Positions 31,888 through 35,464 of a stretch of DNA of 48,748 nt are shown here, one piece after another. A model generated the notes under the pieces. The model was given only the letters and a program-made list of their open reading frames with translations, ran no database searches and was not told the origin of the DNA. The DNA comes from Opitutia bacterium (lineage in GTDB: Bacteria; Verrucomicrobiota; Verrucomicrobiia; Opitutales; Opitutaceae). Position 1 is the stretch's first letter. The number at the start of each line of letters is the position of its first letter. The stretch covers positions 1 through 48,748 of the forward strand of contig CANGCX010000011.1 of NCBI GenBank assembly GCA_947452315.1, written 5' to 3'. The position numbers and the translations under genes were made by a program.

Positions 31888-34095
31888 TTAGCCTTTGCCT
31901 TTGCTATCGGCCGTTAGGGGAGGGCGGTTGCTCGCCCAAGATTCACGATTTTTACCGAGCTCAATGGCGTCGACGATTACGCGGAGAGTTTCTCGCAGGT
32001 GAATATCCACTTTGCCGTAACTTTCGTTTTCCTCGGAAAGGGTCTCGGCGTCTTCATCGTCATCTTTTTTAGGAGCTTTGATGCGTGGGGCGGGAGGCGG
32101 GCCGAGTCGGTATTCCTTAAAGGTAAAATCATTTTTCGCGAGGCGTTCGCGTTCTTTGTTCATGTCTTTTCTAAATGCGGTATCTGAGACTTTTTGTTGT
32201 TGGCGCTCCTCGAGGTTGAGCGAGACAAGTTTCTGTTCTTGGCGGCTTTTGAACCACTCGATGTTGCGTTTGAGGAAAGTGAATTCTTCAAGTTGAGATT
32301 GGCGTTCAAGACTGGCCTTGCGCAGCGGACTAAGAATTTTGGTATCTAAAGGGCTGCCATCATAAAAACTAGTTGGGATTTGATCCCAGACGAGCGCGTG
32401 GGGCAGTGCGGCCTCACCGATCGGGAGGTAATCGTCGATTGAGGGAAGGACGATGTCAGGTACGACGCCTTTGAGTTGGGTGGAGGCCCCGCCGGGTAGG
32501 TAGAATTTCTGGATGGTTATTTTAGCCGCGCCTGTTTTTGCGGGCGAACTGGCGAGGAGTCGTGAGATGTTTTTCATTTCCATTACGGTCTGGACGGTGC
32601 CCTTACCGTGAGTCGAGGTGTCCCCGATGACGACAGCTCGGCCGTAATTTTGGAGCGCGCCGGCCACGATTTCCGAAGCCGAGGCGCTGAAGCGGTCGAC
32701 TAGGACGGCGAGCGGTCCATCGTAGGCGATGTTGGATGACTTGTCGCTGTCGACTTGGATTGCGCCCGAGTAGTCTTTTACTTGTACGACTGGTCCGCGG
32801 CGGATGAACAGACCAGCTAGGTCGATAGCTTCGGTCAGATAACCGCCCCCGTTGCGTCTTAGGTCAAGGACGAGGCCGCTCATACCGGCGTTTTTGAGCT
32901 GCTCGATGAGTCGCGCAACGTCTTTGGTGGCGCCGGTTTTATCGCCATCGCTGTCCGTATCGCCATCTTCAGCCGGGCCATAAAAGGCGGGCAAAGAAAT
33001 GACTCCGAGAGATTGGTTGCCGCCAGATGGGGCGGGAACTTGGAAAATAGCTGAATGCGCGCGAGCTGAATTTAATTTAACGACATCACGATTAATGATG
33101 ATTTCTTTGCGCACAGAAGGATCAGTCGCATTGGCTGGCTGGACAATGATACGCACTTGGGTGTTTTTCTGACCACGTATCATATCCACGACTTTACGTA
33201 ATTTCATACCGATAACTTCGACTGGCTCGGCCCCGGTTTGGGCGACGGAAACGATGCGGTCGTTGGGTTTGAGTTCACGACCGAGATCGGCCGGGCCTCC
33301 TGGAACGATTTCTTTGACGTAACAGTTATCGTCTTCGACGCCCAAGAGCGCGCCAATGCCGACCAGTTGCAGTTTCATTTGAATCCCAAAATCTTCAAAA
33401 GTTTCGGCGGAGAAATAGGTGGAGTGTGGATCGTAGAGTCGGGCCATGCATCCCAGGTAAATTTCGGCGAGGTCACGACCTTCTATCTCGCCGAGATTTT
33501 TGAGCATGCGCTCGTAACGTTTGTGGACTGTGGTTTTAGCCTCCTCGATCGTTTTTTTATTCAGGAGCTCGTCGATGAGTTCGAGTTTGAGTCGGTCGCG
33601 CCAGAGTTCTTCGGAATTGGAGAAATTTGCGGGCCAATCGGATTTGGAGCGATCTTTGCGGTAAGTGGCGTTGGTCTTAAGATCGAAGTCCTTTTTCAAC
33701 TCTTCGAAAATCCAAGCTATGCGAGTTTCGGCACGAGTCTCATAAGTGGAAAAAATCTGATAAGCTGCGTCGATGTTTCCTAGATAGGAGGCGTTTTCGT
33801 AGACGCTATTGCCGAATTTAGAGACGAAATCTGCTTTGTCGCTGTTTAGAAAAAATAAACGTTGGCCATCGAGTTCACCCATGTAATCGGCAATCACTTG
33901 AGTGTAGTCAGAGCTTTTGACCGCGTCGCGGTTGTAGTGAGCCTGCTCTAGAAGTTGAACGAGAGTTTTAGTCTCCGTTGAGAGTGTGGTCGAGGTGCTA
34001 AATTTACGGTCGGATGCCACCAAAAAGTTGGTGGCGCTGAGGACGTAAATTAAGAGACTATGAAACCATGCTTTTTTAAAATTTTTCAGATACAT
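31888..34095 (-). CDS. Tail-specific carboxy-terminal processing protease (S41)
   Basis: 735 residues, exported to the periplasm by a signal peptide (SLLIYVLSATNFLVAS). It resembles Prc/Tsp. A PDZ domain lies about residues 235-320 (VGIGALLG, VPGGPADLG). The S41 protease core carries VLDLRRNGGGYL near 409, the catalytic serine in F-SASAS-E (470-474) and the catalytic lysine K498 in THGKGTVQ. A C-terminal DUF3340-type domain follows. It degrades or trims periplasmic proteins from their C-terminus. It is a close neighbour of prmC, tail to tail. Confidence 0.95.
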   Translation of the reverse strand: MYLKNFKKAWFHSLLIYVLSATNFLVASDRKFSTSTTLSTETKTLVQLLEQAHYNRDAVKSSDYTQVIADYMGELDGQRLFFLNSDKADFVSKFGNSVYENASYLGNIDAAYQIFSTYETRAETRIAWIFEELKKDFDLKTNATYRKDRSKSDWPANFSNSEELWRDRLKLELIDELLNKKTIEEAKTTVHKRYERMLKNLGEIEGRDLAEIYLGCMARLYDPHSTYFSAETFEDFGIQMKLQLVGIGALLGVEDDNCYVKEIVPGGPADLGRELKPNDRIVSVAQTGAEPVEVIGMKLRKVVDMIRGQKNTQVRIIVQPANATDPSVRKEIIINRDVVKLNSARAHSAIFQVPAPSGGNQSLGVISLPAFYGPAEDGDTDSDGDKTGATKDVARLIEQLKNAGMSGLVLDLRRNGGGYLTEAIDLAGLFIRRGPVVQVKDYSGAIQVDSDKSSNIAYDGPLAVLVDRFSASASEIVAGALQNYGRAVVIGDTSTHGKGTVQTVMEMKNISRLLASSPAKTGAAKITIQKFYLPGGASTQLKGVVPDIVLPSIDDYLPIGEAALPHALVWDQIPTSFYDGSPLDTKILSPLRKASLERQSQLEEFTFLKRNIEWFKSRQEQKLVSLNLEERQQQKVSDTAFRKDMNKERERLAKNDFTFKEYRLGPPPAPRIKAPKKDDDEDAETLSEENESYGKVDIHLRETLRVIVDAIELGKNRESWASNRPPLTADSKGKG

Positions 34096-34186: not shown

Positions 34187-35077
34187 TTAAGATCTTAAGT
34201 TTTTAGCCTGATTTAATTTTTCTTTTTCGTCACGCGTGAGGGAGTTCAGGCCGGTACTGTTAATTTTGTCTAAGATGCGATCCACTTCAGCACGCAGGTG
34301 TTCCCTTTGTTTTGACGGCGTTAGGTCCGCAAGCTGGGTGCTATCTAAGGTTTTAATGCTTTGATTGCGCATTGAGAACGAAGCGGATGCGGTACCTCGC
34401 GAACGAAAAAAATATCCGACTCCTCCTTGGCTAATACGATAGTAAAGCCATCCGGCGAATAATCCTCCGAAATGCGAGGAAGGCGCGTAGGCGAAGGGGG
34501 CCACAGCTCCGTAGATCTCATAAAAACCGGAAGCAACGACGGAGATACAGGCCAGTAAAATTACGAAAATTTTTGGCCTGATTGCTACGGGTATGAAAAA
34601 AAACAGAAGAAACCGCAGTTCGATTTCCGGTTTCAGCCAAGCTAAGTAGGCCAAGAGCCCGCAGATCCCGGCGGTGGCGCCAGCAAGCACTCCACCTGTT
34701 CGCCAATGGATTACGGACCAGAACAAGCCTCCTGTTATGATTGATGCAGCGTATAAAATTAAAAATACCCTTGGGCCCATCGATTTTAATAACTCACCGC
34801 CTAAAAGGATGAGCCCGGCTACGACCATGATGATTTGCAGGATATTGCGGGTGTCGTGAACCCAGGCATAGGTTAACAAGGTCCAGAGACGTAATTCCCG
34901 AAGACTAAATCCACTGAGTGCTACTCTTTGAAATAAATCTGGCCCAGGCCTAGCCTGTAAAAATTGGAAAAAAAGCTGCAGCACGTATCCCGCGATCACC
35001 GATGAGATCAACCAAACATGGGCTGAGGTCCCTCGCTCGGTTGAGGGGGCGCGCATATATGAACGGTCAGACAACAT
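34187..35077 (-). CDS. Rhomboid-like membrane protein with Thr in place of the catalytic Ser
   Basis: 296 residues, about six predicted membrane helices. The first loop WTLLTYAWVHDTRNIL (from W65) matches the rhomboid W-x-x-x-T-x-x-x-x-H pattern. The active-site GxSG region reads G133-ATAG-I-C-G140, so the serine position is Thr135. The partner histidine is H202 in SHFGGLFAGW. The C-terminal tail (AEVDRILDKINSTGLNSLTRDEKEKL) matches a domain found on Bacteroidetes and Verrucomicrobia rhomboids (DUF6576 type). It may be an inactive pseudoprotease that binds clients, or a threonine variant. ATG at 35056 is a possible alternative start. Confidence 0.85.
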   Translation of the reverse strand: MLSDRSYMRAPSTERGTSAHVWLISSVIAGYVLQLFFQFLQARPGPDLFQRVALSGFSLRELRLWTLLTYAWVHDTRNILQIIMVVAGLILLGGELLKSMGPRVFLILYAASIITGGLFWSVIHWRTGGVLAGATAGICGLLAYLAWLKPEIELRFLLFFFIPVAIRPKIFVILLACISVVASGFYEIYGAVAPFAYAPSSHFGGLFAGWLYYRISQGGVGYFFRSRGTASASFSMRNQSIKTLDSTQLADLTPSKQREHLRAEVDRILDKINSTGLNSLTRDEKEKLNQAKNLRS

Positions 35078-35230: not shown

Positions 35231-35464
35231 ATGGCTAATAAAGCAGACAAGTGGGCCCAAAACACAGCAGGTAAGTTCTTCGTCGATCAGCAATGCATCG
35301 ATTGCGATCTTTGCCGCGAAACTGCTCCTGGATTTTTCACGCGCCATGACGAAGGTGGCTATTCCTACGTGCACAAACAGCCCGTAGCTGAAGATGAGAT
35401 CGCGGTTTGTATGGAGGCGCTAGAGGGCTGCCCAGTTGAAGCCATCGGTAACGACGGCGAGTAA
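35231..35464 (+). CDS. Small [4Fe-4S] ferredoxin
   Basis: 77 residues. The cysteine pattern C-x2-C-x2-C (CIDCDLC) with a later C-P (EGCPVEAIG) is that of a single-cluster ferredoxin. One further cysteine sits in CMEALEGCP, which could form a disulphide as in Thermotoga-type ferredoxins. It carries electrons to unidentified partners. A strong terminator follows 29 bases later, so it is a single-gene unit. The upstream TTGACA at 35194-35199 has no good -10 partner. Confidence 0.94.
   Translation: MANKADKWAQNTAGKFFVDQQCIDCDLCRETAPGFFTRHDEGGYSYVHKQPVAEDEIAVCMEALEGCPVEAIGNDGE

Follow-up and report, generated by a model that had tools for sequence, protein, structure and literature searches.

Rhomboid pseudoproteases are already a known kind of protein, known mainly from eukaryotes. 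The iRhoms have the rhomboid fold without catalysis and are tied to another protease, ADAM17; between TM1 and TM2 they carry a large loop domain, and their cytoplasmic domain is long. Derlins are rhomboid-like pseudoproteases of membrane-protein quality control, with a WR motif in the first loop. Among bacterial rhomboids, YqgP of Bacillus subtilis is an active protease with its catalytic Ser288 kept and a cytosolic part formed by its N-terminal domain. It is reported to act as an adaptor that presents MgtE to FtsH, a role that does not depend on its own activity but does require a free active site (PMC7231995). The same paper raises the question of how rhomboid pseudoproteases arise from proteases. 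The active E. coli protease GlpG, with Ser201, H150 and N154, has been made and crystallised as an S201T mutant (2XTU, 2XTV), reported to be inactive, its Thr hydroxyl pointing away from His254 and towards the oxyanion hole (PMC3093617). Residues H150 and N154 are stated in PMC2989971 not to be essential for activity.

The gene described here, R1, lies in a stretch of 48,748 nucleotides (the window) from an Opitutaceae genome. It carries naturally the change that was engineered in GlpG S201T. The features of R1 and its neighbours, in window coordinates, are:

34187..35077, minus strand: R1, putative rhomboid-fold pseudoprotease gene, 296 aa, ATG start (Pfam, AlphaFold2 model, structural match)
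35048..35077, minus strand: N-terminal motif MLSDRSYMRA (family consensus MLxDRxYMR)
34439..34891, minus strand: Rhomboid domain PF01694, residues 63-213 (profile match)
34835..34837, minus strand: codon 81 (Gln), equivalent of GlpG oxyanion residue H150 (sequence comparison with GlpG)
34823..34825, minus strand: codon 85 (Val), equivalent of GlpG oxyanion residue N154 (sequence comparison with GlpG)
34673..34675, minus strand: codon 135 (ACC, Thr), catalytic serine position, in motif GATAG, residues 133-137
34472..34474, minus strand: codon 202 (His), equivalent of GlpG H254, in SSHFGG
34208..34312, minus strand: DUF6576 (PF20216) C-terminal tail, residues 256-290, with the near-invariant EVDRILDKIN..G..SL...E
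31888..34095, minus strand: prc, tail-specific protease (S41), 735 aa, conserved downstream neighbour of R1
35231..35464, plus strand: divergent ORF of 77 aa, presumably ferredoxin-like from its Cys pattern

Fold and active site of R1

The Rhomboid profile matched R1 at E 2.2e-12 (47.8 bits, against a Pfam cut-off of 22.6), and what a preliminary description of this DNA had called a rhomboid-type C-terminal tail corresponds to DUF6576 (Pfam E 1.1e-10). No NCBIfam family matched R1 at E 0.1, the rhombosortase family TIGR03902 included. A scan for promoters and terminators gave no signal clearly exceeding shuffles. The six-helix layout proposed from the letters is borne out by an AlphaFold2 model built on a 68-row alignment (mean pLDDT 87.1, pTM 0.74), which has membrane-length helices at residues 19-40, 79-100, 102-123, 135-148, 168-188 and 199-217. 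In structural comparison (Foldseek and VIA-align) the model matched the six-helix bundle of GlpG best, with a VIA Z of 18.9 over 163 residues at an rmsd of 2.7 A, and scored 17.1 against the S201T structure 2XTU; sequence identity to GlpG over the structural alignment was 13-17%. After GlpG came iRhom1 and iRhom2 from their ADAM17 complexes (Z 17.5-14.4) and, more weakly, Derlin-1 (Z 13.0).

R1 differs from each of these systems. Relative to GlpG it has T135, Q81 and V85 in place of Ser201, H150 and N154, so that both GlpG-type TM2 oxyanion residues are replaced in the window protein, and it has the DUF6576 tail. Its TM1-TM2 loop in the AlphaFold2 model spans only residues 41-78 (~38 residues), unlike the large loop of iRhoms, and the protease beside it, Prc, is unrelated to ADAM17. 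Where derlins have WR, R1 has W65-T66. The rhomboid first-loop motif that had been described as kept is therefore kept in part: W65 (GlpG W136) and H74 (GlpG H145) are present, but GlpG R137 is replaced by T66, Thr being the usual family residue there. As regards a YqgP-type adaptor role, what was observed is the gene pairing with prc.

At the active site the ORF does read GATAG as described, with Thr135 where the catalytic Ser of a GxSx motif would stand at the start of TM4, and the His202 noted in SHFGG was found in SSHFGG, in the place of the catalytic His of TM6. T135 was equated with GlpG S201 from Ser-bearing orthologues (GASGxxY/F, GASAxxY) and residue spacing, automatic alignments being indecisive at the motif: MAFFT placed S201 on A132 and hhalign placed it on A134, and the HMMER alignment also shifted, with low confidence.

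Distribution and history of the serine loss

R1 matches were found in 51 of 57 related genomes. A first orthologue set of 157 ORFs gave 132 distinct proteins, 104 with Ser at the nucleophile site and 28 without; adding 40 further regions brought the total to 172. Ser is present in 140 of these, and the other 32 have Thr (17), Gly (5), Met (3), Val (3), Ala, Leu, Phe or Trp (one each). The equivalent of His202 is kept in 170 of 172 orthologues, and in 31 of the 32 that lack Ser, where it could serve the structure or bind a ligand. Outside the order (Opitutales), each of the 20 orthologues sampled is canonical, with Ser, His and HxxxN.

GATAG is common to five proteins of the same genus, that of the window and the orthologues from G002, G003, G008 and G009 (the one from G008, L005, is a partial sequence). 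Codon 135 is ACC or ACT in all five, the codons differing synonymously. The alignment called for by the preliminary description thus finds Thr135 in 4/4 of the closest same-genus orthologues, and because five assemblies read GATAG with synonymous codon changes, Thr135 is not a sequencing or assembly error. That description had also held that Ser in orthologues would mark a one-off mutation. Most of the distant orthologues do carry Ser, yet the change is an old one that marks a whole clade, and a one-off mutation is ruled out by the tree described below. Three distinct sister proteins from the same genus read GGVAG, with Val at the nucleophile site.

The tree (IQ-TREE quick search, single support value) had 171 rows, L005 being omitted as short, and was built without columns 81, 85, 133-137 and 202. 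It contains one clade of 26 orthologues spanning several genera, with SH-aLRT 96, in which 25 lack Ser; L071 is the sole Ser-bearing member. The 32 non-Ser orthologues are these 25, L005, and six from outside the clade (L018, L023, L024, L040, L108 and L246). Parsimony on the tree requires 7 changes between Ser and non-Ser, or 10 losses if Ser was never regained. Within the clade the nucleophile site has drifted and reads T, V, M, G or F. One subclade (L014, L097, L104, L125 and L136) has Thr with HxxxN and His intact, which suggests that Ser-to-Thr came first and that the drift to V, M, G and F and the loss of the oxyanion residues came later. The N154 equivalent is kept in 119/139 Ser but in only 8/31 non-Ser orthologues, in a contingency table that ignores relatedness; an independent-pairs test of Ser loss against oxyanion loss had only 4 usable pairs and so lacked power.

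Two of the proteins outside the clade have lost more, and independently. In L040, Leu replaces Ser and Asn replaces His (GPLAA, VANLAA), and L246 has Trp at the nucleophile site; in both, ~2.8 kb lies between R1 and prc.

Ser200 (34478-34480), two residues before the catalytic His, was considered as a substitute nucleophile. It is present in 151/152 members of the order and in 1/20 outside it, and since it occurs both with and without Ser135 it is no replacement for it.

Rhomboid-domain matches number three in the genome (84% complete): R1, a rhombosortase, which served as a control, and a paralogue, R2. The rhombosortase (P0002, on contig C133 of G000) matches TIGR03902 with 105 bits against a cut-off of 84 and has an intact active site. 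Across the same genome set, rhombosortases have Ser in 30/30 and His in 29/29 loci examined, of 38 matches, and this rules out general assembly noise as the cause of the Ser loss in R1. R2 (P0003, L148; 17143-17787 on contig C8 of G000) has the same pair of Rhomboid and DUF6576 domains as R1 and likewise lacks catalytic residues; it differs in that Ser, His and HxxxN are all absent and in not being the prc-linked gene. Among 17 aligned paralogue sequences, 13 lack Ser, His and HxxxN and 4 are canonical. Some relatives whose R1 appears dead possess a further rhomboid that is canonical, such as L250 in G005.

Pairing with prc and the possible partner of R1

R1 does lie between a Prc protease and a ferredoxin-like ORF, as had been described: prc is downstream on the same strand after a gap of 91 bp, and the ferredoxin-like ORF diverges on the other side. 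The window Prc aligns with E. coli Prc (5wql) at E 1e-99 and retains the motifs SASASEI and GKGTVQ, which we take to hold its catalytic Ser and Lys. E. coli Prc is periplasmic.

Pairing was assessed for the 152 distinct members of the order, of which 8 were short of sequence, leaving 144 testable. In 124 of them prc is directly downstream of R1 (within 600 bp), in 6 it is within 4.5 kb, and 14 have none. All testable members of the non-Ser clade (24/24) have the pair. From this it follows that R1 and prc were paired long ago in the order and stayed together after catalysis was lost. Outside the order it was found in 0/19 testable cases; there, L226 has a different S41 peptidase (score 76) directly upstream of its canonical R1 homologue. 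In the family, the order of the genes around R1 and prc is also broadly conserved. At 84 loci, a few of them overlapping, prc was found at 78, PrmC at 55, TonB at 53, PrfA at 50 and M3 at 43, differences that contig ends explain in part.

We favour, with moderate confidence, the reading that R1 is a rhomboid pseudoprotease with a membrane job, most likely in membrane-protein quality control or regulated proteolysis alongside another protease. Its ancestor would have been an active rhomboid with an additional, non-proteolytic job. A conservative Ser-to-Thr step, the counterpart of S201T in GlpG, would have abolished catalysis, with drift at the site thereafter. For the job that remained, transmembrane clients may be bound within the bilayer by the rhomboid bundle and a partner docked by the N-tail and DUF6576 tail, which are conserved and probably cytosolic. 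Prc is the first candidate for this partner because of the gene-pair evidence, and the proposed role would resemble that of YqgP presenting clients to FtsH, the closest precedent to have been tested, or of iRhom controlling ADAM17. Because the cutting residue has been lost clade-wide and yet R1 is conserved beside a protease gene, R1 is probably a membrane receptor or adaptor, not a cutter, working with Prc or another protease. Against this reading are the His202 kept in 31/32 non-Ser orthologues, the Ser of L071 inside the clade, the published statement that GlpG does not need H150 and N154 (PMC2989971), the conserved gene order around the pair, and the 14/144 unpaired members of the order.

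That the protease is specifically Prc is a tentative proposal. A stronger form of it, in which the order has a dedicated bacterial counterpart of iRhom-ADAM17, with a clade-wide dead R1 taking in membrane clients and either controlling or supplying Prc and with the Ser-bearing relatives as the source protease, we consider unlikely.

Alternatively, R1 may be a pseudoprotease that works with a cytosolic protein, be it FtsH, a different AAA protease or a signalling protein, and has no link with Prc, the gene pair reflecting inherited gene order. The N-tail, the DUF6576 tail and L4 hairpin residues rank with the best-conserved parts of R1, and all are predicted to be on the cytosolic side; since Prc is periplasmic, direct contact between R1 and Prc is not the first suggestion of this conservation pattern. 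With both conserved ends probably facing the cytosol, a cytosolic partner is no less likely than Prc where direct contact is concerned. Pairing with prc is also absent in the 14 order members mentioned and in 19/19 outside the order, and YqgP is reported to work with FtsH (PMC7231995). By contrast, distant members of the order keep prc at 78/84 loci while the four other genes are kept at 43-55, which argues for more than inherited order, although this is partly a contig-end effect. As a full account, with Prc playing no part, the cytosolic alternative seems possible but somewhat unlikely.

Probable loss of catalysis, selection and the origin of pseudoproteases

The preliminary description had left two options for Thr135, an unusual nucleophile or the mark of a pseudoprotease. 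For R1 to be an active intramembrane protease using Thr135 with His202 is improbable, with a slim chance left for the Thr subclade. It would explain why His202 is invariant in the non-Ser clade (25/25), why Thr is the commonest replacement (17/32), and why the five proteins of the Thr subclade keep HxxxN and His. However, Thr in the same place made GlpG inactive, with its hydroxyl away from His254 (PMC3093617); the same site in the same clade is elsewhere V, M, G or F, which are incapable as nucleophiles; and the window R1 lacks both oxyanion side chains. The pseudoprotease option is supported by the same three lines of evidence, and judged from sequence R1 is very probably a catalytically dead, naturally encoded bacterial rhomboid pseudoprotease, a protein whose catalytic residue has been lost while selection has kept the rest.

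Evidence for this selection comes from omega over the core of closest pairs. Values were 0.06-0.19 for non-Ser proteins (10 pairs, median 0.094) and 0.04-0.45 for Ser proteins (49 pairs, median 0.19), the pairs not being independent of each other; of the pairs with dS <0.9, 49/131 Ser and 10/11 non-Ser passed a 60% identity filter, and the rest were dropped. GATAG proteins, at 0.06-0.12, are no looser than Ser proteins. By these ratios the non-Ser clade is under purifying selection. Kept within it are M1, R5, W22, W65, G93, G116, W120, G133, P150, P163, E187, S200, H202 and the DUF6576 core. The consensus at position 134 falls from 1.00 to 0.57 in the clade; the drop at position 135 follows from how the group is defined. 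That R1 has lost catalysis and is now functionless and on its way out is less probable still than a threonine nucleophile, for although the branches leading to the window subclade are long (0.94 substitutions per site) and no R1 match was found in the same-genus genomes G001 and G006 (88-91% complete), decay is largely refuted by omega, the frames are open, the DUF6576 core and N-tail are retained, and the clade covers several genera.

In the open-licence PMC literature we found no paper on DUF6576, none on Opitutaceae together with rhomboid, nothing relevant on pseudorhomboids, and, by title or abstract start, none on a rhomboid paired with a tail-specific protease or in a prc operon. A bacterial clade with a naturally lost rhomboid nucleophile tied to prc was likewise not found in that literature, searched mostly by title or abstract start.

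The origin of rhomboid pseudoproteases from proteases has been discussed but is hard to test. In R1 and its orthologues a single bacterial gene occurs, with its gene context unchanged, in an active-looking form, a Thr form and a fully degenerate form, and the natural Ser-to-Thr step matches an engineered and crystallised GlpG mutant. Exchanging the orthologues within a single host would thus put the transition to the test, and prc offers a genetic handle on the non-proteolytic job of R1.
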